Shown piece after piece: positions 13,938-36,748 of a stretch of 40,596 nucleotides of DNA. Each line of letters opens with the position of its first letter. Position 1 is the first letter of the stretch. Where the stretch lies: positions 1 to 40,596 of the forward strand of contig CAKKSC010000076.1 in the NCBI GenBank assembly GCA_919902985.1, in the 5' to 3' direction. The notes beneath the pieces are model-generated. The model was not told where the DNA came from. It was given only the letters and a program-made list of their open reading frames with translations, and did no database searches. This DNA is from Desulfuromonadales bacterium. Lineage in GTDB: Bacteria; Desulfobacterota; JAENJC01. Made by a program: the position numbers and the translations under genes.

Positions 13938-14142
13938 TCAACAGCGAAAGGCCATCAGGGTAAACATCCAGATAATGAGGACCTTCACGAAACTCCGGGA
14001 GATGCTGGCCACGAACAAGGAATTGGCGAAGAGGCTTGATGAGATGGAGAAGAAATATGATGCACAGTTTAAAGTCGTCTTCGATGCCATCAGGCAGTTG
14101 ATGGTGGTGCCGGAACCGAAAAAGAAGAAGATAGGGTTTTGA
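13938..14142 (+). pseudogene. ORF6N-family C-terminal fragment, frameshifted
   Basis: The last 60-odd residues (AIRVNIQIMRTFTKLREML, then NKELAKRLDEMEKKYDAQF, ending PEPKKKKIGF) match the full ORF6N-domain protein encoded at 30534-31037. Relative to that gene, one G is missing at about 13950 (GAAAGGCC where the full gene has GAAAGGGCC), which breaks the frame. Everything upstream of the NSER segment is absent. ORF6N proteins are DNA-binding-like proteins common on phages and mobile elements. The copy is inverted relative to the two ORF6N copies at 27 and 30 kb. Confidence 0.85.
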
Positions 14143-17321: not shown

Positions 17322-18017
17322 ATGCCAAGAACATCAAGAGTAGTAATACCAAACTATCCGCACCATGTCATGCAACGGGGCCATAATAGGCAGGTGGTCT
17401 TTGTAAGGGATGAGGATTATCTCTATTACCTTGAAAACTTAAAGGAATGGAAGAGAGAATTAGGTTGTAAGGTATATGCTTACTGCCTCATGTCAAACCA
17501 TGTTCACCTGATAATCGACCCTGGAGATAAGATTGAAAATCTGGCATTACTTATTAAGAGGGTTGCGGGAAGACAAACCAGATACGTGAATAGGCTGGAA
17601 AGTCGTAGAGGAACCCTTTGGGAAGGGCGATATAAATCCAGTCCTATCGATAAAGACCCGTACCTTATAGCGTGTTGCCGATATGTTGAACTCAACCCTG
17701 TTCGGGCAAGGATCGTAGATGATCCGGGAGAATACAGATGGTCGAGTTACAGGCACAGGGCAGGTATGGAAATGTTAGATTGGCTGGATAGAGACCCAAG
17801 TTATCTGGGGTTAGGAAAGACGAATAAAGAACGTGAAAAGCGCTACATCGAATCGCTGAAGGAATCGATTCCGAAGTCAGAATGGGATATTATCCGTCAA
17901 GCTGTCCAACGAGGACAGCTCACGGGGACTTCCCGATTTATTGAAGAAGTGGAAGCAGAGATTGGAAGGAGGATAGAATTTCGGAAACAAGGAAGGCCAA
18001 AAGGTGATAAAAAATAA
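17322..18017 (+). CDS. REP-associated tyrosine transposase (Y1_Tnp domain)
   Basis: A 231-residue HUH-type single-strand transposase. It opens MPRTSRVVIPNYPHHVMQRG, has the HUH pair His60-Val-His62 in SNHVHLII, and a catalytic-Tyr helix region (VAGRQTRYVNRLESRRGTLW). The RAYT signature CCRYVELNPVRARIV and the RWSSYRHR segment follow. The C-terminus (about 165-231) is an extra helical domain. Such proteins excise and insert repeat-flanked DNA and help spread REP-like palindromes. The 3' end of the gene runs into the right flank of the element. Confidence 0.92.
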   Translation: MPRTSRVVIPNYPHHVMQRGHNRQVVFVRDEDYLYYLENLKEWKRELGCKVYAYCLMSNHVHLIIDPGDKIENLALLIKRVAGRQTRYVNRLESRRGTLWEGRYKSSPIDKDPYLIACCRYVELNPVRARIVDDPGEYRWSSYRHRAGMEMLDWLDRDPSYLGLGKTNKEREKRYIESLKESIPKSEWDIIRQAVQRGQLTGTSRFIEEVEAEIGRRIEFRKQGRPKGDKK

Positions 18018-22397: not shown

Positions 22398-22430
22398 GGT
22401 CTTTTTCCGCTGGTATACTTTTGATTAGAT

Positions 22431-22498
22431 TGCAAAGTGCAAAGTGCAAAATGCAAAGTGTAAAATGGTGATTTAAATTTTGCAATTTGCATTTTACA
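22431..22498. repeat. TGCAAAR heptamer tandem repeat with inverted arm
   Basis: Five heptamers of the form TGCAAAG/TGCAAAA/TGTAAAA run from 22431 to 22465. The stretch 22445-22466 is matched in inverse (19 of 22) by 22477-22498, across a 10-nt loop, giving a long A/T-rich hairpin just before the nitroreductase ribosome site. Confidence 0.75.
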
Positions 22499-22517
22499 AT
22501 AACATACAGGAGGTTAT

Positions 22518-23229: not shown

Positions 23230-24240
23230 CTAATAGAAGAATGAAAGCCCGCCCTTCCACTTCGTCTCCTGACTGGAAAACTTTTGCAGGCTTTCTCCGT
23301 AACCGTCCCAGTATTGGACATACAGAAAAAAGTTTGTATACGGGATATTTTGGTGATAACCGATCTCGATTGAGCCTTTATCCCAGTCGCGGAATATCCG
23401 TGTCTTGAAATCCAACTGGTTATTCTTCAGCCATGCCATGTTAGACAAGTAAGGCAACTCTCTTATACTGAAACCGACCTCGCCTCTTCCGGCATAATCA
23501 AGAAACTTTTCGTTATGTCCTATAGATGTGAGATAGTCGTCCTGGTCTTCATATCCGTATGCCTGCCACAGTTTAAGGTAAGCCGAATACTTTTCCTTAC
23601 GGAGGACACCTTTTCCCTCCAGTTCGTTTTTTGCTTCAATTCCGAATGAGAAGAGGAGATAAAGCCTGTTCCAGCTTCTTGACTCTGCCCCGTCACGGCC
23701 GTTGGACTCATGTTCCCCGCCGATCACCACATGATCGAGGTATATACCGCTTCCTTTGACCTTGTAGTCAAGAAACAGTTCAGGGTTGTAGTTGTTCTCT
23801 TCAAACGGGGCCGAGGGTTTTCCGATATTCCAGAAAGACTTCTGGGTATAGGCCATATATAGTGGGAAATAGTCTCTTTTAAAGATATTAAGGCTCCCTT
23901 CGAATACTTGGTATTTGGCGCTTATCTGAAACTTTACCTGGGCGGCAGGATCGCCGGGGAGGCCGTTTGCGATAAAATAGTTGAGCTTGTGGGGCTGAAA
24001 ATCAAGACCAGGTTTTTCTGCTTCAGCCATTGGCTCCAGCAGTGCCCCCTTCATTTCCGCCCATATTGCCTCCTTTCCCCTTTTTGCGCTTTCATTTTCA
24101 TAGACATTCTGTATCGTCGCCTCCAGCTTTTCAAGCTCTTCAGTCGTAAACTGGCCAACTGCGCCGGCTCTTACTGGAAGTAAGATCAGGAATGCGCTCA
24201 GCAGGATCAACTGAATATTGAAAGCAGACATCATATTCAT
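23230..24240 (-). CDS. pldA: Outer-membrane phospholipase A (OMPLA)
   Basis: Outer-membrane beta-barrel phospholipase A1 that hydrolyses membrane phospholipids when activated by dimerisation and calcium. A signal peptide (IQLILLSAFLILLPVRAGA) is followed by a longer than usual N-terminal region and then the barrel with YTQKSFW. The catalytic residues are His177 and Ser179 in GGEHESNGRDG and Asn191 in SRSWNRLY. The His-Ser and Ser-Asn spacings (2 and 12) equal E. coli OMPLA (H142, S144, N156). The protein ends in aromatic residues (SFFY). Its ATG overlaps the stop of the upstream DUF900 gene (ATGA), so the two are coupled. Confidence 0.92.
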   Translation of the reverse strand: MNMMSAFNIQLILLSAFLILLPVRAGAVGQFTTEELEKLEATIQNVYENESAKRGKEAIWAEMKGALLEPMAEAEKPGLDFQPHKLNYFIANGLPGDPAAQVKFQISAKYQVFEGSLNIFKRDYFPLYMAYTQKSFWNIGKPSAPFEENNYNPELFLDYKVKGSGIYLDHVVIGGEHESNGRDGAESRSWNRLYLLFSFGIEAKNELEGKGVLRKEKYSAYLKLWQAYGYEDQDDYLTSIGHNEKFLDYAGRGEVGFSIRELPYLSNMAWLKNNQLDFKTRIFRDWDKGSIEIGYHQNIPYTNFFLYVQYWDGYGESLQKFSSQETKWKGGLSFFY

Positions 24241-25373
24241 TTCATAACCCAGACATTCGGCCCTTTGGGGCTGTGATCGCGCCGGCGCGCACTGAAATCG
24301 TGTGATACGCCGTCTATGCTCTGCCTTATGTCCTCATTCACCTTTCCCATCAGATAGTAACTGTGCTCTACCAGCCCTTGACCCTTCACCACAGGTGAAC
24401 AGTCTATCTGGTTGACCTTGTTGTGCAGCTGCATCGGTCTTGCCGCCCCTTTTGTCCCAAGTCTTTCAGGATTTCCCTTTGTATAGTCGGAGATATACAT
24501 CGCTTTGTCACCCTCATTGTGGTAGATGTTCACAAACCTCGCCAGCTCATGCACCCTCCCCATCTCCTTATCAGGCTCCAGGGCGTTGTCGTCCACGTCA
24601 GGGGCGCACATGAATATATGCTCGAAGACCCTCGGAAGGGCAGAGCCAGAGGTATGATCGTATATCCGCTCAATCGTATTCTGCAGAACGTAGTTCCCCA
24701 TAGAGTGGCAGAGAAGGTGAATATCCTGTCCGCAGAGGCCGCCGCCATCCTTCTTTAATGTCATGAGGAAGTCCCTGACCTTAAGCATCCCCCTGCCAAA
24801 GGCATACCCGGATGCCTGCGCCTCGGTCCTGTCCGATTTGTAGGAGACAAAAGGGAGGGCCATCCCGTCTGACGGCCAGGTAAACAAGATAACCAGAAGA
24901 TTCTGATCCGGGTCTTTTGTCGGCGAATTATTAAGCATCTCCTGAAGCGAAAGGGCGGAACCGACCGCCTCATGCCATGAGACATTGAAGCCGTGAATGT
25001 ATATGAGAACATCAGTCTTGTCCATCATCTCCTTTTTCAGGTCATCGAACATGGCAAGGGAACCGAGCTTCGCATCCTCCTGATGGATATCTGCGACATT
25101 AGGGTCGAGCTTCTCCCTATACGCCTCGATCTTCGCGCCCTTGGCCTGCTCAGTCAGGTAAGTTGCAAGGGACACCCCATCTCCAACTCCATAAGCGCCT
25201 TTCCTCTTATGATGCTTATCGATTACCTTTTCGTCCGCCGATAGGTTCAACCAGCCGAACCGGAGATTCTCCGCACCGTCATCGCTGAAGCTTTTCCCAT
25301 AAGATGTGGGTTGCCATCGGTCACTGCCTTCATGTTTTCGGTTTGTGGCGTAGTAAAGGGAAAGTGTTTTCAT
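24237..25373 (-). CDS. DUF900-type alpha/beta hydrolase
   Basis: The 378-residue product starts at MKTLSLYYATNR, where AGGAGG lies about 4 nt upstream; a 7-residue upstream extension is rejected for this reason. Features: LIYIHGFNVSWHEA (oxyanion region), FTWPSDG, the nucleophile elbow LLCHSMGNYVLQ with Ser224, CAPDVDD and a late His (VEHSYY). No signal peptide, so probably cytoplasmic. DUF900 members are esterases or lipases with unknown substrates. Fourth intact downstream member of the caspase cluster and coupled by overlap to pldA. A 111-bp gap with a GTCCCC-rich repeat separates it from the SPOR-like gene upstream. Confidence 0.82.
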   Translation of the reverse strand: MKTLSLYYATNRKHEGSDRWQPTSYGKSFSDDGAENLRFGWLNLSADEKVIDKHHKRKGAYGVGDGVSLATYLTEQAKGAKIEAYREKLDPNVADIHQEDAKLGSLAMFDDLKKEMMDKTDVLIYIHGFNVSWHEAVGSALSLQEMLNNSPTKDPDQNLLVILFTWPSDGMALPFVSYKSDRTEAQASGYAFGRGMLKVRDFLMTLKKDGGGLCGQDIHLLCHSMGNYVLQNTIERIYDHTSGSALPRVFEHIFMCAPDVDDNALEPDKEMGRVHELARFVNIYHNEGDKAMYISDYTKGNPERLGTKGAARPMQLHNKVNQIDCSPVVKGQGLVEHSYYLMGKVNEDIRQSIDGVSHDFSARRRDHSPKGPNVWVMK

Positions 25374-25455
25374 CCTGCCTCCTGAGATATTCAATAGATT
25401 TCAGCATCTATCCACTGGTATTTTATTATTGTAACGGACGTCCCAGCCAGTTCTT

Positions 25456-25481
25456 AAAAGGTTGCGTCCCCTTTATCCCCT
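25456..25481. repeat. AAAAGGTTGCGTCCCC repeat, copy 1
   Basis: AAAAGGTTGCGTCCCCTTT at 25456-25474 is nearly identical to AAAAGGGTTGCGTCCCC at 27176-27192. Both lie between genes of the minus-strand cluster. A third, weaker relative (GGTTGCGGAGCCTTTA) is at 27131-27146. Confidence 0.6.
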
Positions 25482-25484
25482 TTA

Positions 25485-26228
25485 TCACCATCTCCCCTTC
25501 AATATCTGAGGGGTTAGCTCCGGGTCGTTAATCCTGAGTAGCTTATATGTCTTAGCGGCCTCCTCCTCGGTGGCGTGGCGGGAGAATATTACTACGTAAC
25601 TATCTCCGGCCTTAAGCACCTGAAGGCTTTTGGGGACATACTTTTCGGTGCTGAGCTTCTTATTTAAAAGAGATTTGTACGAAGCAACGGCATCATCCTG
25701 TGATACATATTCTCCGATTGATACCGCAAAAGTACCAGTAGATGGCACTGCGCTCGATGCTTTTTTATCCTCGGCAAAGGCAGGTTTGGGGAATAAAAAG
25801 CCGGACTGTTTCAAATCCTCCAGTGGTATCTGTATGGTTTCAAGTTCTTTAATCACAGGCTGCATATTATCAATAGATAAGACCTCCGCCGAGGCGCTTG
25901 CTTTAACATCCTCGACCTTTTTGGTTGCTGAAAAGTTTGTGTTTAGATTGCTGATCGTTGCTATCAGGATAGCAGGAATGCCAAGGGCATAGAAGAAGAT
26001 GTCCTGGGGCTCCTTTTCCTTGAAACTTTTCGAAAAGATGATTGCGGTGATTGTCCCGATAAGGACGCCGGTAACGATTATCGCCCCATAGTTCGGCTTA
26101 GGTGCAACGCCATTATGAGAAAGCAGGCTCGGCAACAGGTCCATAAAAAGAAAAGGAGCGATACCTGCTATGAGGCCGATAAAGAAGGTCAATAAGATGC
26201 TGGTTAAGATACTTGTTTTTTCGGACAT
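25485..26228 (-). CDS. Three-helix membrane protein with SPOR-like C-terminus
   Basis: ATG 26228 (MSEKTS) is chosen over 26234 because AGGAGG lies 6 nt before it. Three hydrophobic helices occupy about 8-30 (ILTSILLTFFIGLIAGIAPF), 47-65 (YGAIIVTGVLIGTITAII) and 78-92 (FYALGIPAILIATIS). A linker of about 60 residues follows. The final ~75 residues read TFAVSIGEYVSQDDAVASY ... SYVVIFSRHATEEEAAKTY, the beta-alpha pattern of SPOR domains, which bind denuded septal peptidoglycan. Overall function unknown; the layout suits a protein tethering or sensing at the cell wall. It lies 65 bp after the muramidase gene. Confidence 0.65.
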   Translation of the reverse strand: MSEKTSILTSILLTFFIGLIAGIAPFLFMDLLPSLLSHNGVAPKPNYGAIIVTGVLIGTITAIIFSKSFKEKEPQDIFFYALGIPAILIATISNLNTNFSATKKVEDVKASASAEVLSIDNMQPVIKELETIQIPLEDLKQSGFLFPKPAFAEDKKASSAVPSTGTFAVSIGEYVSQDDAVASYKSLLNKKLSTEKYVPKSLQVLKAGDSYVVIFSRHATEEEAAKTYKLLRINDPELTPQILKGRW

Positions 26229-26293
26229 AAACACCTCCTACTGTGATTGATCTACCATCGTGGTTGAGCTTCAGATTATTACCTCATTCAATT

Positions 26294-27100
26294 CTATCCT
26301 CTCGGATCTCTGGGAAGATAATGGCCTGTGGCTCTCTTATAGGCATCCGATGTGCGAGCACCGGGGACGCCGTCCACCTTTACGAACATCCCTGGAAAGG
26401 TATTAAGCCATCGCTGGAGTTCCCCAGCGCGCGACACCGACATTGGATCACTCGATTTCTTCAACGAATATCTGACAACGAGCGGCTTGGCATCTGGTTT
26501 AGGGATCGGCTGGTCTGCAAAGTCAATCTGGATGTTTTCCGCCATTCTTCTCAATAGAACCGCAGCGCCGCATTGTTTGGACACTGCCGTATCAGACCAG
26601 ATGCCGTCTGCTACAAACTTGCCGCTCGTATAATGATTTGAATAACTCCAGAGGTATGGCGAGAGGACATGCGGATGATAAAGGCGGTAGCCGAATCCGT
26701 TGTACCTTTCAAGTTGATAGAGCGTTCCCGAAAGGCTCCAATCGGTCTTTGAACTTAATCCCTTCAGCGAGAGGGCATCACTTGCACTTTCCTCCCATGT
26801 GAAGGGTGGGTCCCCGTTTTTTGGTCTTCCTGCAGGAGCCTGCACTGTGCGGCGAACGAGCGGGTCTCCATTATGAAGATGTTTCGTGAAATTGAGGCTT
26901 GACTCCATATTGTGGATCACGGCTGTAAAAAACCAGGGAACCCCAAGAATACTTTCGGCATTATTATAGCGTGCCGTATTTGCCTGTATTTTAGCGATAA
27001 TACCCTCAACCACCCCGGCTCGATTGTGCCGGATGACGCATGTATTAAACAAATTCTCATATTCATCACGCAATGCCTGGGATAGCTTTACAGTAGCCAC
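26294..27100 (-). CDS. Lysozyme-family (COG5526-like) muramidase with peptidoglycan-binding tail
   Basis: The 268-residue product starts at a GTG (27100) preceded by AGGAGGT. The catalytic-type domain (about 20-190) has GVPWFFTAVIHNMESSLNF, HLHNGDPLVRRTVQAPAGRP and FTWEESASDAL, then GFGYRLYHPHVLSPYLW, the pattern of the lysozyme family in COG5526. The likely acid is the Glu of HNMESS. The C-terminal 50 residues (AGELQRWLNTFPGMFVKVDG, then VPGARTSDAYKRATG) resemble a peptidoglycan-binding-domain repeat. No signal peptide is present, so reaching the wall would require membrane breach or a dedicated exporter. It follows the caspase genes in the same direction after an ORF6N insertion. Confidence 0.8.
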   Translation of the reverse strand: MATVKLSQALRDEYENLFNTCVIRHNRAGVVEGIIAKIQANTARYNNAESILGVPWFFTAVIHNMESSLNFTKHLHNGDPLVRRTVQAPAGRPKNGDPPFTWEESASDALSLKGLSSKTDWSLSGTLYQLERYNGFGYRLYHPHVLSPYLWSYSNHYTSGKFVADGIWSDTAVSKQCGAAVLLRRMAENIQIDFADQPIPKPDAKPLVVRYSLKKSSDPMSVSRAGELQRWLNTFPGMFVKVDGVPGARTSDAYKRATGHYLPRDPRG

Positions 27101-27175
27101 GGCTTACCTCCTCAAACAAAATTCAAAAACGGTTGCGGAGCCTTTATTCTCAATATTCGCCGAATTTAATATGTG

Positions 27176-27196
27176 AAAAGGGTTGCGTCCCCTTTT
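27176..27196. repeat. AAAAGGTTGCGTCCCC repeat, copy 2
   Basis: Second copy of the element at 25456-25474, here AAAAGGGTTGCGTCCCC followed by TTTT. It lies between the muramidase start and the ORF6N remnant. Confidence 0.6.
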
Positions 27197-27347
27197 CCGC
27201 ACATTTAACTCTGTGCTTCATACATCAACCCTCTCCTCTCCTCTCCTCTCCTCGCCTCGCTTTGCCGCCCTTAACGCCCCCTGGCCTTTTCATAACTCCC
27301 CTCAATCTACCCACGGTCCATAAACCCTCTTACCTTAAGAGGCAAGC

Positions 27348-27770
27348 TCAAAACCCTATCTTCTTCTTTTTCGGTTCGGGTGCCACCATCAATTGCCTGA
27401 TCGCATCAAAGACCCCTTTAAACTGAGAATCATACTTCTTCTCCATTTCGTCCAGCCTCTTTGCCAATTCTTTGTTGGAGGCCAGCATCTCCCTGAGACG
27501 GACAAAGGCCCGCATTATGGCTATATTTGCCTGTACCGCCCTTGGGCTTTTGAGAATGCCGGAAAGCATTGCAACGCCTTGCTCTGTAAAGACCATTACG
27601 CTCTTTGAGAATTTCAATGTTTCCGTATCATGCACTGCCGAGGATATCACAATTTGTGATATCCTCATTATCTCATCACGAGTCAATGAAAACATGAAGT
27701 CCTCCGGAAACCTTTCAATGTTCCGGCGAACAGCCTGGTTTAACGCCCTGGACAAAATAAAGGGGACCAA
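27348..27770 (-). pseudogene. N-terminally truncated ORF6N-family gene
   Basis: Homology to the intact ORF6N gene at 30534-31037 begins at about 27746 (RALNQAVRRNIERFPEDFMF) and continues to the shared end PEPKKKKIGF. The first ~35 residues of the domain (VMFDKDLAELYGVET region) are replaced by sequence derived from the GGTCCCC/GGGGACAG repeats. The ATG at 27770 lies in that repeat sequence and has no ribosome site. A reduced protein might be made, but the gene is probably inactive. Codon and sequence differences from the 30.5-kb copy show it is a diverged paralogue, not a recent duplicate. Confidence 0.8.
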
Positions 27771-27795
27771 AATAAAGAAAATAAAGAAAAATAAA

Positions 27796-27811
27796 GGGGA
27801 CAGATTTATTT
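27796..27811. repeat. Solitary RAYT-type 16-mer
   Basis: GGGGACAGATTTATTT, identical to the left flank of the RAYT element at 17267-17282. It lies in the AT-rich stretch where the ORF6N remnant loses its N-terminus. Confidence 0.8.
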
Positions 27812-27882
27812 AATCCTCTCACTGCCTTGCTTTGCTACCCTTAACGCTCTCTGGCCTTTTCATAACTCCCCACCATTGCCCC

Positions 27883-28713
27883 TTAAACCATCTTCCCCTT
27901 CCTCTTCGTCGCCTCGCACTCCAACTGCGGTACCTGGGTGTACTTCTCCTTTTTCAGGTCACCGCGGACCTTTTCAACCAGCTGTTTGCGCGTAAGCTTG
28001 TTTTTGCTGCCTCTTATTCCCTTGCAAAGATAGTAGGTAAATGCACCGTGCCATGTTTTGCCAATCTTGGCGTCTGCGCTGGTCTGGTCGGAACGGCAGC
28101 CGGTCCAGAGGACGTGGTGGGTTATCCCTTTATCCAAAAGCGCCCTGCTCAGGCCTCTTGAAGAACGTCCCTCCACTTCTTCAAAGGCAGCAAGGGACGG
28201 CGGAGGAAGATATCTTGGCCTCCTTGTAAGGAGGAAATCTATTGCCTTCAGTCCTGTGCCGCTGTGGCATGTATCGAGATAGACTTCGAGAAGGACCTCC
28301 TTCGGGAGTTGAATGAACAGGTCATGCAGTTCGTCGTCGGTGATTATGTATTTGGAATCCCATTGCCCGTTCTTTTCGGCCAGGTCATGAGGGCAGAATG
28401 CCTCGTCGGCGTTATCAGGTTCGTCTCCACTGATGTCGGGGACCTGTGTTCCGTGGCTCGAAAGGCTGAAGACTATATGGCCGAGCCTCCCTGCCTTGGC
28501 ATCCTTCACCATCGCCTTGAGGTTGTTTATGATGTTTTCTTTGGTCGCCTTGGCATCGGTCAGGATGGTTATATCCTTTTTGATAAAACCGAGGAACTCC
28601 TGAAGCACCGAAGACATGTCGTTGGCGTCATTGATGCAACCCTGCAATGCCGCATCCGGATAGTTTTTAAACTTGTTGATCCCTACACAAAGCGCTTTTC
28701 TGTTGTTTGCCAT
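27883..28713 (-). CDS. Caspase-family (peptidase C14/metacaspase-like) protease
   Basis: A 276-residue stand-alone caspase-like cysteine protease. It opens KALCVGINKFKNYPDAALQG (the standard p20 start), has the catalytic His87 in LSSHGTQVPD and Cys149 in DTCHSGTG. A DEAFCPHDL segment contributes the acidic pocket typical of the Arg/Lys-specific metacaspase side. No signal peptide. AAGGAGG precedes the ATG and only 11 bp separate it from the upstream hydrolase-caspase gene, so they are co-translated. Bacterial caspases often act as activators of effectors in conflict or death modules. The likely targets here are inferred from the neighbours, not shown. Confidence 0.9.
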   Translation of the reverse strand: MANNRKALCVGINKFKNYPDAALQGCINDANDMSSVLQEFLGFIKKDITILTDAKATKENIINNLKAMVKDAKAGRLGHIVFSLSSHGTQVPDISGDEPDNADEAFCPHDLAEKNGQWDSKYIITDDELHDLFIQLPKEVLLEVYLDTCHSGTGLKAIDFLLTRRPRYLPPPSLAAFEEVEGRSSRGLSRALLDKGITHHVLWTGCRSDQTSADAKIGKTWHGAFTYYLCKGIRGSKNKLTRKQLVEKVRGDLKKEKYTQVPQLECEATKRKGKMV

Positions 28714-28724
28714 TTGCTTCCTCC

Positions 28725-30464
28725 TTATTTTATGAATTTCAGCGGTTCATTTCTCTTTGATTTCGGACATACCAGCATAGGGGTCTGATGGAACTTCAAT
28801 TCATCCTTCAACAAGGTCTCCGCCTCTTCAATCAGGGTACTGAAGGTGAAAGGCTTCTTGTTCTTGCCACCCTTTCTTCTCCTGAAGGTGTTCACCAGGC
28901 AATACGTGAACGCACCATACGAAAGGGCGCCGTGCCGGTATTCATGGGCGAACTGGTCTTCCCTGCACGCCTCCATGAGGATCGGCATATACGGACCGTG
29001 GTGGCCGTATGCCTTCTTGGCCTTTTCAAAAACCTCATGATCGGACCACAAGGACACTGCCCGTCCCAACTTCTTAGCTGCCCCCGAACCTCCAAGCCAT
29101 GCCTTCTTTTCCTCATCGGAGGCAGTAAGCTCTTTCTTTGCCAGCCCCAGCTCCCTGGGGAACCACATCTTCTTCTTTGAGTCCCACCGGAGGGACCTGT
29201 GTCTTATGTCGTCGGGAGGGTCGACACCCCTTACCCGAAGGGAGCCGTTCCGCGTCATCCCGCCGGAGTGGCAACAGTCGAGGATGGCTATGAAGTTGGC
29301 ATCGTAGGGCAACTGGCTGTACAGTTTGTGGAACTGGTCGTCAGTGACGGCCCTTTCAAGAGACCAGTCAAAGTCGTGGGGGACAAGACATTCATCCAGA
29401 TGATCCGCCTCCTGGGCGGCACCATAACCTGGTATCTGAGTCCCGTGTCCGCTGTAAAAGAAGAAGCGGGCATCATCCTTCCCTGCCCCTTCCAGCAGCC
29501 ATTCCAATCTTTCAAGTATCCCTTTTGCAGTGGCCCTGTCGTTCAATACAACGCGGATGTCGTCGGGTTCAAACCCGATCTCCTGCAGCGCCTCGCTCAT
29601 GAGATAGACGTCGTTGACGCACCCTTCCAGCCTCATGGCCGGGTTGGGATACTCGTTGATCCCCACCAGAAGGGCTCGTTTCACCGGTTTTTTCTTCGAT
29701 GCCTTTTTCCATTTATCAATCGATCTGACGATGGTCTCAGGTTCGCCCTTTACGATAGGTTTCCAGACCTGGTCCCGCACCGCGGCATGGCTGAGATATG
29801 AAACCGCATCATGGTCAAGCATACCGGGAATGTCAAAATATGTGCTCACCTGCTTAAACCTGTCTGAGTCCAGGCTAATGGGCGCGGCAAATGCTGCATC
29901 CTCGCTGTTGTAGAGGTGATACCATTTTACTGCTGATTTTAGTTCGATGACCCTCCCTCCGAAAACGGACCGGACGAAGGGATTGCCGATCTGCGATCCA
30001 TAGGTCACGTAGTGTCTGCCTTCTATCATTTTTGCGTTGGAGGCGAATAGGTCATATGAGAGGAGGGAGCCGAGACTATGTGCACACACAACGTTGGGGT
30101 CGAATTCATTCACCTTCTCAGACAGTTTTTCTCGGAGCTTTTCCCTTAACTTTTCATCTGCTGTCCACTGGGCCACCATCCCGGCTGTCCAGCGAAGGTC
30201 GTCGGCAAAACCCCTTCTTCCCGTTATGAAGTCCCCAATGCCGTGATATACTCCACTTGCCATGAGCCTGGCCATGGCCTCGGCCACTACGGCCGTGTCA
30301 ATCTTTGCCTCTGAAAATAATCTGTCATATTGAAATATATCAAATTCCAGGGCTGTGTCTGGATCAAGTGAGGAAACAGCGTCCATGATAGCCTTTTCCC
30401 ATTCCTCATGCCATGACTGATCAGCCTCCGTGTGCCCTACACCGTGAATAAGAAGAATTTTCAT
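28725..30464 (-). CDS. Alpha/beta-hydrolase fused to a caspase-family protease
   Basis: A 579-residue two-domain protein. Residues 1 to about 250 form an alpha/beta hydrolase: MKILLIHGVGHTEADQSWHE (oxyanion start), a nucleophile elbow CAHSLGSLLSYD with Ser130, and a late LDHDAVSYLSH with a possible catalytic His. Residues about 265-579 are a caspase p20-like domain. It has KRALLVGINEYPNPAMRLEG, His340 in YSGHGTQIP and Cys398 in LDCCHSGG, plus a long insertion after the Cys. The second caspase follows 11 bp later. A GGAG ribosome site precedes the ATG. No signal peptide or membrane helix. Fusion of a lipase/esterase-like domain to a protease is the most distinctive architecture in the window. 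Domain calls are firm; substrates are unknown. Confidence 0.88.
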   Translation of the reverse strand: MKILLIHGVGHTEADQSWHEEWEKAIMDAVSSLDPDTALEFDIFQYDRLFSEAKIDTAVVAEAMARLMASGVYHGIGDFITGRRGFADDLRWTAGMVAQWTADEKLREKLREKLSEKVNEFDPNVVCAHSLGSLLSYDLFASNAKMIEGRHYVTYGSQIGNPFVRSVFGGRVIELKSAVKWYHLYNSEDAAFAAPISLDSDRFKQVSTYFDIPGMLDHDAVSYLSHAAVRDQVWKPIVKGEPETIVRSIDKWKKASKKKPVKRALLVGINEYPNPAMRLEGCVNDVYLMSEALQEIGFEPDDIRVVLNDRATAKGILERLEWLLEGAGKDDARFFFYSGHGTQIPGYGAAQEADHLDECLVPHDFDWSLERAVTDDQFHKLYSQLPYDANFIAILDCCHSGGMTRNGSLRVRGVDPPDDIRHRSLRWDSKKKMWFPRELGLAKKELTASDEEKKAWLGGSGAAKKLGRAVSLWSDHEVFEKAKKAYGHHGPYMPILMEACREDQFAHEYRHGALSYGAFTYCLVNTFRRRKGGKNKKPFTFSTLIEEAETLLKDELKFHQTPMLVCPKSKRNEPLKFIK

Positions 30465-30533: not shown

Positions 30534-31037
30534 TCAAAACCCAATCTTCTTCTTTTTCGGTTCCGGTGACGCCATCAATTGCCTGATGGCATCAAAGACC
30601 CCCTTGAACTGAGAATCGTATTTCTTCTCCATCTCATCCAGTCTCTTTGCCAATTCTTTGTTGGAGGCCAGCATCTCCCGGAGTTTCGTGAAGGTCCTCA
30701 TAATCTGGATGTTTACCCTGATGGCCCTTTCGCTGTTAAGGACACTGGAAAGCATGGCAACTCCATTTTCTGTAAACACACGGGGCAACTTTCGAGTGCC
30801 GCCCCAACTTGATCTTCCAAAATGGAATATCAAGTTTTGAAACTCTTCTTTTGTTAACTGAAACATGAAATCATCAGGGAACCGCTCGATGTTTCTGTTG
30901 ACGGCCTTATTGAGGTTTCCTGTTTCCACCCCATAAAGCTCTGCCAGGTCTTTGTCAAACATAACCTTCTTACCCTGCACAAGGAATATCTTGTTTTCAA
31001 TTACCTCCGACTGCATTAATAGGGCATTTTTAGTCAT
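30534..31037 (-). CDS. ORF6N-domain protein (intact)
   Basis: A 167-residue protein with the ORF6N domain at the N-terminus (VMFDKDLAELYGVETGNLNK, then NIERFPDDFMFQLT) and an alpha-helical coiled tail (NKELAKRLDEMEKKYDSQF) ending PEPKKKKIGF. ORF6N proteins occur on phages and mobile elements and are thought to bind DNA through a KilA-N/Bro-N-like fold. GAGGGGG precedes the ATG. It lies 69 bp upstream of the hydrolase-caspase gene in the same direction, so it could regulate or be carried with that cluster. Only intact member of three copies in the window. Confidence 0.88.
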   Translation of the reverse strand: MTKNALLMQSEVIENKIFLVQGKKVMFDKDLAELYGVETGNLNKAVNRNIERFPDDFMFQLTKEEFQNLIFHFGRSSWGGTRKLPRVFTENGVAMLSSVLNSERAIRVNIQIMRTFTKLREMLASNKELAKRLDEMEKKYDSQFKGVFDAIRQLMASPEPKKKKIGF

Positions 31038-31040
31038 CTA

Positions 31041-31218
31041 CAGCCCCCTCGCTGCAACCACAGTACATACAGAGTTTACGGATTTATTAAATGGAATAAT
31101 ACAAGGGAATGGCTGTTTTTTGATTGATACCCATCCGGGGAAGGTGAATGCTTGCATATCTACCGCCTTTACAGGAAGATTAGAACATGAAGCTGTCCCG
31201 ATTATCATGCAGGCATGA
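31041..31218 (+). pseudogene. Possible C-terminal gene remnant, unrecognised
   Basis: The 384-bp gap before dnaK contains a plus-strand frame ending TGA at 31216-31218. Its later part (FTDLLNGIIQGNGCFLIDTH, then FTGRLEHEAVPIIMQA) has normal codon use and looks protein-like. No start codon with a ribosome site exists before it runs into the opposite-strand ORF6N gene. I do not recognise a family. The rest of the gap (31219-31351) shows nothing I can name. Confidence 0.25.
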
Positions 31219-31351
31219 AGAATAGTCAAGGAATTTTGAAAAGTGACGAGTCGCTGTGATGATTAACACCAATCCGCATTTAAATAATGACTCTGAATGC
31301 TGTGCCCGGCACCCCTCTGAAACGTATGAGCGTGTGTTTCAGGACGACCCC

Positions 31352-31380
31352 TTGACAAACCGAATACCCATGATTATCAT
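31352..31380 (+). promoter_or_regulatory. Sigma-70-type promoter of dnaK
   Basis: TTGACA (31352-31357), a 17-bp spacer and TATCAT (31375-31380). The start would be near 31387, with a 35-nt leader carrying TTGGAGGT before the ATG. No CIRCE repeat or correctly spaced sigma-32 boxes are seen. Confidence 0.7.
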
Positions 31381-31421
31381 CCAGGTAGCGGTAAAATTCT
31401 ATATTTTGGAGGTAGGATCAA

Positions 31422-33329
31422 ATGGGCAGCAAGATTATCGGTATAGACCTCGGTACGACCAACTCCGTGGTTGCAGTCATGGAGGGTGGAGAGGCTAAGG
31501 TTATAGTAAACCAGGAGGGAGCAAGGCTTACCCCTTCTGTTGTGGCCTTTACAAAGGACGGCCAGATTCTGGTCGGGCAGGTGGCAAAGAGGCAGGCGAT
31601 CGTTAACCCTGAGAACACAATTTTTTCCATAAAGAGGTTCATGGGGCGCCGCTATGACGAGGTGAACGAGGAGATGAAGATGGTCCCCTACAAGGTCCTT
31701 GCAGACGACCAGGGGAGGGCTGTTGTTGATATAACGGGGAAGCACTATGCCCCCCCCCAGATATCCGCCATGATCCTCACCAAGCTTAAGGAAGCGGCAG
31801 AGGCCTACCTTGGGGAGACTGTCACTGATGCCGTAATAACAGTCCCGGCCTATTTTAACGATGCCCAGAGGCAGGCAACTGTAGAGGCTGGAAAGATTGC
31901 CGGACTGAACGTAAGAAGGATCATCAACGAACCTACAGCCTCGGCCCTGGCTTATGGGGAAGATAAGAAGAAGGAAGGGACTATCGCAGTTTATGACTTC
32001 GGAGGGGGTACTTTTGACATCTCAGTACTCGACATAGGGGAGGGGGTTTTCGAGGTCAAATCAACCAATGGAGATACCCATCTTGGAGGGGACAACATAG
32101 ACCAGAGGCTTGTGGACTGGCTGGTTTCAGAGTTCAAGAAGGACCAGGGGATAGATCTTTCCAAGGACAGGATGGCCCTCCAGAGACTTAAGGAGTCTGC
32201 TGAAAAAGCGAAGATAGAGCTCTCATCCACAACGGAGACAGAGATATCCCTTCCGTTTATAACGGCCGACGCGACAGGGCCAAAACACCTCAGTTACAGG
32301 CTCTCCAGAGGGAAGTTCGAGCAGATGGTGGAAGACATACTGAGCAGGAGCGTTGAACCATGCAAGAAGGCAATGGCTGATGCAAAGCTGAGTCCGGACA
32401 AGATCAATGAGGCGTTGCTGGTTGGTGGATCTACCAGGATACCAAGGGTACAGGATATTGTGAAGACAGTGTTCCAGAAGGAGCCGAACAGGAGCGTCAA
32501 CCCTGATGAGGCCGTTGCAGTCGGCGCTGCAATCCAGGCCGGAATACTTGGGGGAGAGGCCAGTGTGAAGGACCTGGTGCTGTTAGATGTGACCCCTCTT
32601 TCACTTGGGATAGAGACCCTTGGCGGCGTCATGACAAAGTTGATAGACAGGAACACCACTATCCCAAGCAGGAAAAGCGAGATATTTACGACCGCTGCAG
32701 ACAGCCAGACCTCTGTGGAAGTCCATGTCCTGCAGGGTGAGAGGAATATGGCCAGGGACAACAGGACCCTTGGGAAGTTCCATCTTATGGGGCTCCCTCC
32801 TGCGCCAAGAGGGGTCCCGCAGATAGAGGTCGCCTTCGACATAGATTCCAACGGCATACTTCATGTCACTGCAAAGGACATGGGTACAGGGAAGGAGCAG
32901 AAGATTGTTATCACTGCATCCAGTGGACTCTCCAAGGACGAGGTAGACAAGATGGTGAAGGACGCCGAGGCCCATGCTGAAGAGGACAAGAAGAGGAAAG
33001 AAGAGGTCGAGGTCAGGAACCAGGCCGACTCCCTTGTTTACAGCACTGAAAAGCTCCTCACGGAGAACAAGGAAAAACTCCCTGAGGCAGACGTGAAGAA
33101 CCTTGAAGAGGCCATAGGTGAGGCAAAGAAGGCGATAGAAACCAATGACGCCGTCAAGATCAAGGATAGCATGGACAAGCTCACAAAGGCCTCCCACAAG
33201 CTTGCCGAGGTGCTCTATCAGCAGCCCAAGGCTGAAGAGCATGCGCATACCCAGGAGCCGGAGGGGGGGGAGAAGAAGGCCCAGGAGGGAGATGTTATAG
33301 ACGCGGAGTTTAAGGAAGAGAAGAAGTGA
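31422..33329 (+). CDS. dnaK: Chaperone protein DnaK (Hsp70)
   Basis: ATP-driven chaperone for nascent and stress-denatured proteins. The 635 residues include the N-terminal phosphate loop [17 protein letters not shown], the [20 protein letters not shown] signature, [18 protein letters not shown], the third Hsp70 signature [11 protein letters not shown], and the substrate-binding domain with a charged lid and an acidic end. GrpE, DnaJ and HrcA genes are not adjacent. hsp20 follows after an 82-bp gap. Good GGAGGT ribosome site. Confidence 0.98.
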
Positions 33330-35962: not shown

Positions 35963-36748
35963 ATGTCCCCTTTAACAACTGGAACTACGATCACCATCCT
36001 GGGATCAGGGACCTCCACCGGTGTCCCCCTTATAGGATGTGACTGCGATGTCTGCACATCCACGGACCTGCGCAACAAAAGGACCCGTTGTTCAATTTTG
36101 ATATCCGGCAGAGAAGGGAATATCCTGGTTGATACATCTACAGACCTTCGTTTTCAGGCCCTGTCCAACAACATAAATAGGATCTCGGCGGTCCTTTTCA
36201 CCCACGCCCACGCGGACCACATCCACGGGATAGATGAACTGAGGAGCTTCAACTTCATTCAAAAAGAGAGGATACCGTGCTACGGTGACAGGAAGACCGT
36301 GGACAAGATAACTGCCATGTTCTCATATATCTTTGAAAGAACGTGGAAGGGTGGAGGCATCCCCAGGCTCGACATGAACTCCGTAGAAGCCGGGGATTTC
36401 ACGGTTCTCGGCAAGACAATCAAGGCAGTGCCTGTCATGCATGGAGACCTCCAGATCTTCGGCTACCGTTTCGGCCCCTTCGCCTACGTCACGGATTGTA
36501 GCGGTATCCCGCCGGAGTCCATGAAAGAGCTCGAAGGGCTCGACCTTCTAATCTTAGGAGCGCTGAGGTACTCTCCCCACACCACCCACTTTTCCGTGCA
36601 GCAGGCGCTGGAGGTCGTGAGGTCATTAAGGCCTCGCCGTACAATCCTGACCCACATGGGGCATGAGATAGAGTACGAAAAAGCTTCAAGGGAGCTGCCT
36701 GAAGGGGTAGAGCCAGGGTATGACGGGATGAGGATTGATTTGAAGTAG
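35963..36748 (+). CDS. MBL-fold metallo-hydrolase (PhnP-like)
   Basis: A 261-residue metallo-beta-lactamase-fold enzyme. The N-terminal TILGSGTSTGVPLIGCDCDVC carries a Cys cluster typical of PhnP relatives. DTSTDLRFQALS and the dinuclear metal motif HAHADHIHGID follow, with later metal ligands in PVMHGDLQIFGYRFG and AYVTDCSG, and ILTHMGHEIEY at the end. PhnP is a cyclic phosphodiesterase; whether this protein shares that substrate is not visible. The gene starts 26 bp after uvrB and probably shares its transcript. No strong ribosome site. Confidence 0.88.
   Translation: MSPLTTGTTITILGSGTSTGVPLIGCDCDVCTSTDLRNKRTRCSILISGREGNILVDTSTDLRFQALSNNINRISAVLFTHAHADHIHGIDELRSFNFIQKERIPCYGDRKTVDKITAMFSYIFERTWKGGGIPRLDMNSVEAGDFTVLGKTIKAVPVMHGDLQIFGYRFGPFAYVTDCSGIPPESMKELEGLDLLILGALRYSPHTTHFSVQQALEVVRSLRPRRTILTHMGHEIEYEKASRELPEGVEPGYDGMRIDLK

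Follow-up and report, generated by a model that had tools for sequence, protein, structure and literature searches.

An alpha/beta-hydrolase fused to a metacaspase at a variable site beside dnaK in a Desulfuromonadales genome

The stretch of DNA analysed here, hereafter the window, is one entire contig (CAKKSC010000076.1, 40,596 nucleotides) of the 2.13 Mb assembly of a Desulfuromonadales bacterium (GCA_919902985.1), which is 95% complete. On its minus strand lies a gene (28725-30464) coding for a protein of 579 residues in which an N-terminal alpha/beta-hydrolase is joined by a Lys/Arg-rich linker to a C-terminal metacaspase. This fused caspase-hydrolase is a real, testable variant of a pair known from conflict systems, and the cassette of six genes that a previous sequence-only reading had proposed around it is a chance gathering at a variable site. 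The explanation that we favour, to which we give an even chance, is that the functional unit consists of the fusion, probably together with a second, co-directional metacaspase, and that the other four genes are independent and were gathered in a variable region.

Both domains of the fusion are well recognized. The hydrolase, which is PGAP1/Abhydrolase_6-like and spans about residues 1-240, matches a hidden Markov model (HMM) built from 15 plasmid homologues, with the window left out, at 2.2e-23, and the His-Ser-x-Gly motif, the Asp and the His of its triad (Ser130, Asp189 and His218 in the window) are invariant in 16/16 sequences. It is followed by the linker (residues 251-263, KWKKASKKKPVKR), where the density of Lys and Arg is the highest in the whole protein, and by the caspase domain (Pfam C14, 3.5e-31), with the dyad His340/Cys398. 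The frame is open over the 579 residues and has its own start site, and neither domain has lost any catalytic or pocket residue. Additionally, the GC content of the gene, overall and at third codon positions (GC3), agrees with that of resident genes.

The specificity of the protease can be predicted from better known relatives. In TbMCA2, Cys92, Asp95, Ser156 and Asp211 have been implicated in the binding of basic P1 side chains (PMC4357240, PMC6426788), and they align with Cys282, Asp285, Ser338 and Asp396 of the fusion, which form its predicted S1 pocket. The second caspase of the window (27883-28713, minus strand; Pfam caspase 1.4e-30), a stand-alone short metacaspase whose gene begins 11 bp after that of the fusion, also retains the His/Cys dyad (His87/Cys149), as well as the Cys/Asp/Ser/Asp pocket predicted to accept a basic P1 side chain. 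Both proteins have metacaspases as their relatives in the PDB, and both show the features of family C14B, that is, a p20 dyad, acidic S1 residues and a p10 region matching those of metacaspases. No export signal is shown by either of them, and they are predicted to be cytosolic. The catalytic pairs named in the sequence-only reading were confirmed in the two proteins.

A tandem duplication of the two caspase genes was considered and was rejected by a phylogenetic tree. In this tree, the second caspase groups with a caspase from another genome of the phylum (G152; support 100/100) and apart from the caspase of the fusion (98/96); because of this separation, the two are not recent duplicates. 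The gene of that closest relative (59-60% identity) is found between RNase T2 and Exo_endo_phos_3 genes (L098 7458-11046). The genome also codes for a third caspase-domain protein, of 502 residues, whose gene overlaps a DUF4384 gene (L048 7537-9045, G000:C7) and lies near proteasome-family and HEPN genes; a similar gene for a 502-residue caspase is carried by a congener, G002 (L047).

Members of the hydrolase family are also found next to caspases elsewhere. Plasmid homologues were collected by a search with the hydrolase only, and a caspase-domain gene, called from Pfam, record annotation or a leave-one-out HMM, directly adjoins the hydrolase in 10 of 16 plasmid loci, a fraction that is not an unbiased rate since the loci were opened by choice. 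These ten belong to Hymenobacter, Sinorhizobium M14, S. fredii GR64 and its close relative in R. ruizarguesonis, S. terangae, S. chiapasense, S. meliloti, Agrobacterium, Bradyrhizobium and Leptolyngbya. Among the remaining loci, one has the hydrolase beside a CHAT gene, one has it fused to a trypsin and others have it beside nSTAND/WD40 genes, while in Acinetobacter it stands alone. A caspase gene confirmed by Pfam lies next to the hydrolase in one viral contig as well (L176).

This kind of association has been described before. Kaur et al. reported in 2020 that, when VMAP carries a caspase domain, an alpha/beta-hydrolase gene is always its neighbour, and that a related hydrolase serves in systems centred on GTPases (PMC7159879). 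A member of the present hydrolase family occurs in the S. terangae plasmid cluster (L124 1630-10602), which contains DO-GTPase1, DO-GTPase2, caspase, alpha/beta-hydrolase and patatin genes; the two DO-GTPases are the marker of a published conflict system. Thus, the pairing of caspase and alpha/beta-hydrolase is already known, whereas their fusion is new within the reach of the searches made. It may represent, in one polypeptide, the caspase and alpha/beta-hydrolase pair of the nucleoside triphosphate (NTP)-dependent conflict systems. As the caspase of the fusion falls outside the clade of the plasmid caspases linked to hydrolases, pairing with this hydrolase family seems, from the sequences, to have arisen more than once, and the descent of the fusion from a plasmid caspase-hydrolase operon is unsupported.

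If these associations are a guide, the fusion would act as an esterase effector gated by a protease. In the model that we propose, infection or stress would lead to activity of the metacaspase domain or of the second metacaspase. The active caspase, given its predicted preference for basic P1 residues, could then cut after Lys or Arg within the basic linker, and this cleavage would free or de-repress the hydrolase. Once released, the hydrolase would behave as a serine esterase attacking membrane lipids, its presumed substrate, or another ester, and would in this way stop the cell. What the data show are the domains, their intact catalytic residues, the repeated adjacency of hydrolase and caspase elsewhere and the lack of the other genes at this site in a congener; the P1 specificity, the cleavage of the linker, the lipid substrate, the trigger and the role in defence or death are inferred. 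Such a role in conflict or death, which had been proposed for the six genes together, is plausible for the fusion in view of the plasmid caspases that accompany its hydrolase family and of the published systems (PMC7159879), and is not supported for the six-gene set.

Several observations weigh against this explanation. With the whole protein as query, 59 relatives gave no second case of the same fusion; nor did 297 genomes of the phylum searched with a profile of the hydrolase, where it is seen in its own genome only. A scan of viral contigs with the fusion gave no match, and a contig scan, which reaches close relatives only, gave one weak match to the caspase region in a metagenome-assembled genome of Gammaproteobacteria. 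No caspase was present in any of the 15 stretches fetched around matches to the hydrolase family from the phylum of the window, and the position of the caspase of the fusion in the tree indicates that its pairing arose separately from that of the plasmids. Finally, DO-GTPase2 was not found in the genome, and neither the fusion nor the second caspase has a sensor gene as its neighbour. As for other NTPase core genes, none was seen among the window proteins scanned; VMAP, vWA and GAP1 were not searched genome-wide.

A rather unlikely alternative is that the fusion serves housekeeping or the management of stress, as an enzyme of protein quality control or lipid turnover, and that its proximity to dnaK reflects its use under stress. 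Metacaspases can act in proteostasis. The flanks of the locus (pyrD, dnaK, hsp20 and uvrB) and the lack of an adjacent sensor NTPase would agree with such a function, as would the surroundings of the third caspase of the genome, with its DUF4384, proteasome-family and HEPN neighbours. However, no such fusion was found in two congeners, whose assemblies are both incomplete, or in the phylum as sampled, and its patchy presence, together with the plasmid-borne relatives, fits an accessory conflict gene better.

It is also possible, but in our opinion unlikely, that the fusion is a self-releasing protease-lipase, in which the metacaspase, helped by the second one, would cut its own linker and free the esterase without a separate NTPase sensor. 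Such a protein would be the esterase counterpart of the Canu defence discussed below, and would represent one of several separate pairings of this hydrolase family with proteases of different clades, together with those involving plasmid caspases, trypsin and WD40-linked caspases.

We consider it improbable that the gene is a degraded or chance assembly, that is, a hydrolase ORF (open reading frame) fused by deletion to a metacaspase, neutral, and being lost like the remnant of an ORF6N gene found nearby. The uniqueness of the fusion and a neighbourhood rich in repeats, with a truncated gene, could be explained in this manner, but the intact catalytic and pocket residues, the long open frame with its own start site and a GC and GC3 composition like that of resident genes are not what such an origin would predict.

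The remaining question is whether the fusion belongs to a larger set. The sequence-only reading had described six minus-strand genes, coding for the fusion, the second caspase, a muramidase, a SPOR-like membrane protein, a DUF900 hydrolase and an outer-membrane phospholipase A (OMPLA), as one death or defence cassette. The six ORFs are indeed present, in the same direction and with names that are mostly right; the family assignments of the caspases, of DUF900 (Pfam 1.2e-27) and of the phospholipase (PLA1, 1.2e-36) were corroborated. However, the run holds a seventh gene that had been missed, a truncated ORF6N (27348-27770) with the second caspase on one side and the muramidase-like gene on the other. 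As this gene intervenes, and as 782 bp separate the caspase from the muramidase-like gene, the six do not make up a single compact operon. Both junctions listed in that reading exist, the 11-bp gap between the caspase genes and an ATGA overlap between the DUF900 and phospholipase genes, but the latter proved weak evidence when the locus was compared with its counterpart in a congener.

Two further genomes of the genus were available, G001 (86% complete) and G002 (79%). In a contig of G002 (C219), small genes of toxin-antitoxin type, among them that of a CopG-type antitoxin and a UPF0175/DUF3368 pair, lie between dnaK and DUF900. Apart from short repeats, DNA identity between the window and G002 is limited to dnaK (31136-33072) and then to 24231-25479, which corresponds to DUF900 and the leader of roughly 85 bp that belongs to it; nothing matching the caspases, the muramidase or the SPOR gene was found at this syntenic site. 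The G002 sequence diverges after the DUF900 stop, and an ORF of 11 codons occupies the place where the phospholipase of the window starts. No phospholipase gene follows DUF900 in G002, though the same ATGA ends DUF900 there, and the overlap is, therefore, weak evidence of coupling. In G001, the genes beside dnaK are those of YaeQ, a QSregVF_b protein, a cupredoxin-like protein and an ORF6N protein. Given the contents of both congeners, the region upstream of dnaK is variable, with DUF900 common to two of the three genomes compared at this site. The absence of the other genes elsewhere in the congeners is less certain than at the site, because both assemblies are drafts.

The families do not travel together in the phylum either. 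Counting the genome of the window itself, relatives of the muramidase were found in 8 of the 297 genomes, of DUF900 in 10, of the phospholipase in 33, of the SPOR-like protein in 4 and of the second caspase in 44. No other genome among them holds four of the six families, the level of co-occurrence for which the sequence-only reading had suggested looking, and no two of the families were seen close together in any other genome. Three families occur in a genome assembled as a single contig (G160), at about 27 kb, 953 kb and 1,908 kb, and three in each of G174 and G198, all on separate contigs. Full-length muramidase homologues stand without the other genes, as in G110, G276 and G284 (55-60% identity), where these genes were absent from the 18-19 kb stretches read and where, in G110, the neighbours are of housekeeping type. 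The proposal that caspases trigger the destruction of the whole envelope is likewise not supported: the phospholipase is of the outer-membrane type and the caspases carry no export signal, so the enzymes would not normally meet. Taken together, these results amount to the kind of refutation that the sequence-only reading had itself named for the cassette.

A single cassette in which the caspases trigger the peptidoglycan and lipid hydrolases is thus very improbable and largely refuted by the synteny of the congeners, despite the common strand, the short caspase gap and the ATGA overlap. The best argument left for it comes from rhizobial and related plasmids, where some relatives of the muramidase domain are joined to a nuclease and others have genes for a caspase, CHAT, an S8 protease or a patatin no more than a few kb away, so that muramidase and protease genes can indeed be neighbours; mostly, though, the plasmid domain forms part of longer proteins, and it belongs to other lineages and architectures. 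More generally, neighbours on one strand with suggestive functions do not make an operon when they occupy a variable site, and comparison with congeners is a cheap way to settle the matter.

The setting of the locus does not suggest a defence island, an option that was rejected because of its housekeeping flanks: the variable region lies between dnaK and a pyrD/nitroreductase block, and no known defence genes adjoin it. With PADLOC, the cassette genes and their ORF6N neighbours matched candidate models for caspase and ORF6N, plus a weak CARF_TM match of the SPOR-like protein (E 0.0026) that we judged to be due to chance.

The muramidase-like gene (26294-27100, minus strand) codes for a phage-endolysin-type protein of what we call the HLHNGDP family. 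Although its motifs, which had been noticed before, and its predicted fold are lysozyme-like, no Pfam, NCBIfam or PHROGs family matches it, and no PDB sequence does so better than E 0.25. The domain is marked by the HLHNGDP-type motif, by Glu66, invariant in 35 sequences, and by NG-G. Its AlphaFold model has a predicted local distance difference test (pLDDT) score of 85, most blocks of the N-terminal domain, which is modelled with confidence, exceeding 90, and the best Foldseek matches are mostly lytic transglycosylases, including MltE/MltF, FlgJ and g-type lysozymes, all weak (E >= 0.5); a lysozyme or lytic-transglycosylase fold is suggested by these motifs and the model. Relatives are encoded by 240 candidate stretches of IMG/VR (L195-L274 among them), with tail-fibre genes just upstream in two examined viral contigs; only one match was found among 50,697 phage records. 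We read this protein, on sequence and model, as a member of a phage-derived endolysin family, apparently unmodelled, and consider its gene independent of the caspases. The plasmid relatives mentioned above mostly form part of larger proteins, whose clusters also contain caspase, CHAT, S8 or patatin genes. Phage endolysins and lytic transglycosylases are the closest known proteins, in view of those tail-fibre neighbours and weak fold matches, but no existing family model fits the window protein.

The next gene (25485-26234, minus strand) codes for a membrane protein with three hydrophobic segments whose C-terminus is SPOR-like, but with a match below the Pfam cut-off (E 0.042). Among the 297 genomes, only three others have a relative, and in the one whose neighbours were scanned (G059) these are metallo-beta-lactamase (MBL)-fold and molybdopterin oxidoreductase genes. 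A phage lysis pair formed by the muramidase and the SPOR-like protein was discarded, as the latter has no phage match and its G059 relative lies among unrelated genes. We consider the SPOR-like gene independent.

The DUF900 alpha/beta-hydrolase (24237-25373, minus strand), with its conserved leader of about 85 bp, is a resident of the site in the genus, the G002 protein at the syntenic site being 96% identical. From the sequence, its start is more likely the ATG at 25373, behind AGGAGG, than the TTG at 25394. The overlapping phospholipase gene (23230-24240, minus strand; PF02253, 1.2e-36) codes for an OMPLA/PLA1 protein, with the PLA1 domain and an N-terminal hydrophobic segment as export signal. 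In the 33 genomes that have it, the family is never near a match of the other genes, and this gene is likewise considered independent.

Two ORF6N genes, both on the minus strand, complete the region. The truncated, antirepressor-like one (Pfam 6.6e-18) begins at profile position 26, its N-terminal part being missing, and related repeats that align with each other flank it on both sides. A full-length one (30534-31037; Pfam 3.1e-33) lies just upstream of the fusion, has copies elsewhere in the genus and is not considered part of the module formed by the fusion and the second caspase. Multiple copies of the family occur both here and in the congener genomes, often near variable sites, and the window has a further member at 13993-14142. 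Other repeats were observed nearby. Of one at 22429-22502, the genomes of both congeners together contain about 20 more copies, all weak; it is near-palindromic, some copies matching on both strands at one place. Motifs resembling repetitive extragenic palindromes (ggttgcgtcccctttt, ggggacagatttattt) lie close to genes at 25457-25475, 27180-27195 and 27771-27812, and the contig carries a Y1_Tnp (RAYT-type) transposase gene at 17322-18017.

Should the fusion work as proposed, it would offer a one-gene system for testing whether bacterial caspases activate enzymes that attack lipids. The pairing was predicted in 2020, and a limited literature search found no experimental test of it; activation of nucleases by caspases was shown in 2025.

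Among known systems, the closest in composition are MoxR-vWA-VMAP and DO-GTPase/GAP1 (PMC7159879), in which a caspase-superfamily peptidase is linked to an alpha/beta-hydrolase; in the S. terangae plasmid, a member of the present hydrolase family stands beside DO-GTPase1/2 and a caspase. The same link exists in the window as a fusion, with the hydrolase first, a metacaspase of a different clade, a second stand-alone metacaspase, and no VMAP, vWA or GTPase core seen near it. With Canu, where a bacterial caspase was experimentally shown to switch on a partner enzyme (PMC12799240), the fusion would share the use of a caspase-family protease to turn on a hydrolytic partner. By contrast, this partner is an alpha/beta-hydrolase and not an MBL-fold nuclease, and no immunoglobulin-like domain is detected by Pfam. 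No Canu-type nuclease exists among the genes downstream of the caspases; the MBL gene of the window (35963-36748) is on the opposite strand, with dnaK and uvrB in between. EACC1-associated caspases (NCBIfam NF047832) also combine a caspase with variable partner domains, but the fusion reaches 48.7 bits where the model requires 140, and its neighbours, ORF6N and the second caspase, are not EACC1-like. Finally, the p20/p10 arrangement, the His/Cys dyad, the Cys-x-x-Asp motif and the Asp preceding the catalytic Cys are those of C14B metacaspases, prokaryotic and eukaryotic, such as TbMCA2 and AtMC4/9, from which the fusion differs in having an N-terminal alpha/beta-hydrolase in place of the prodomain.

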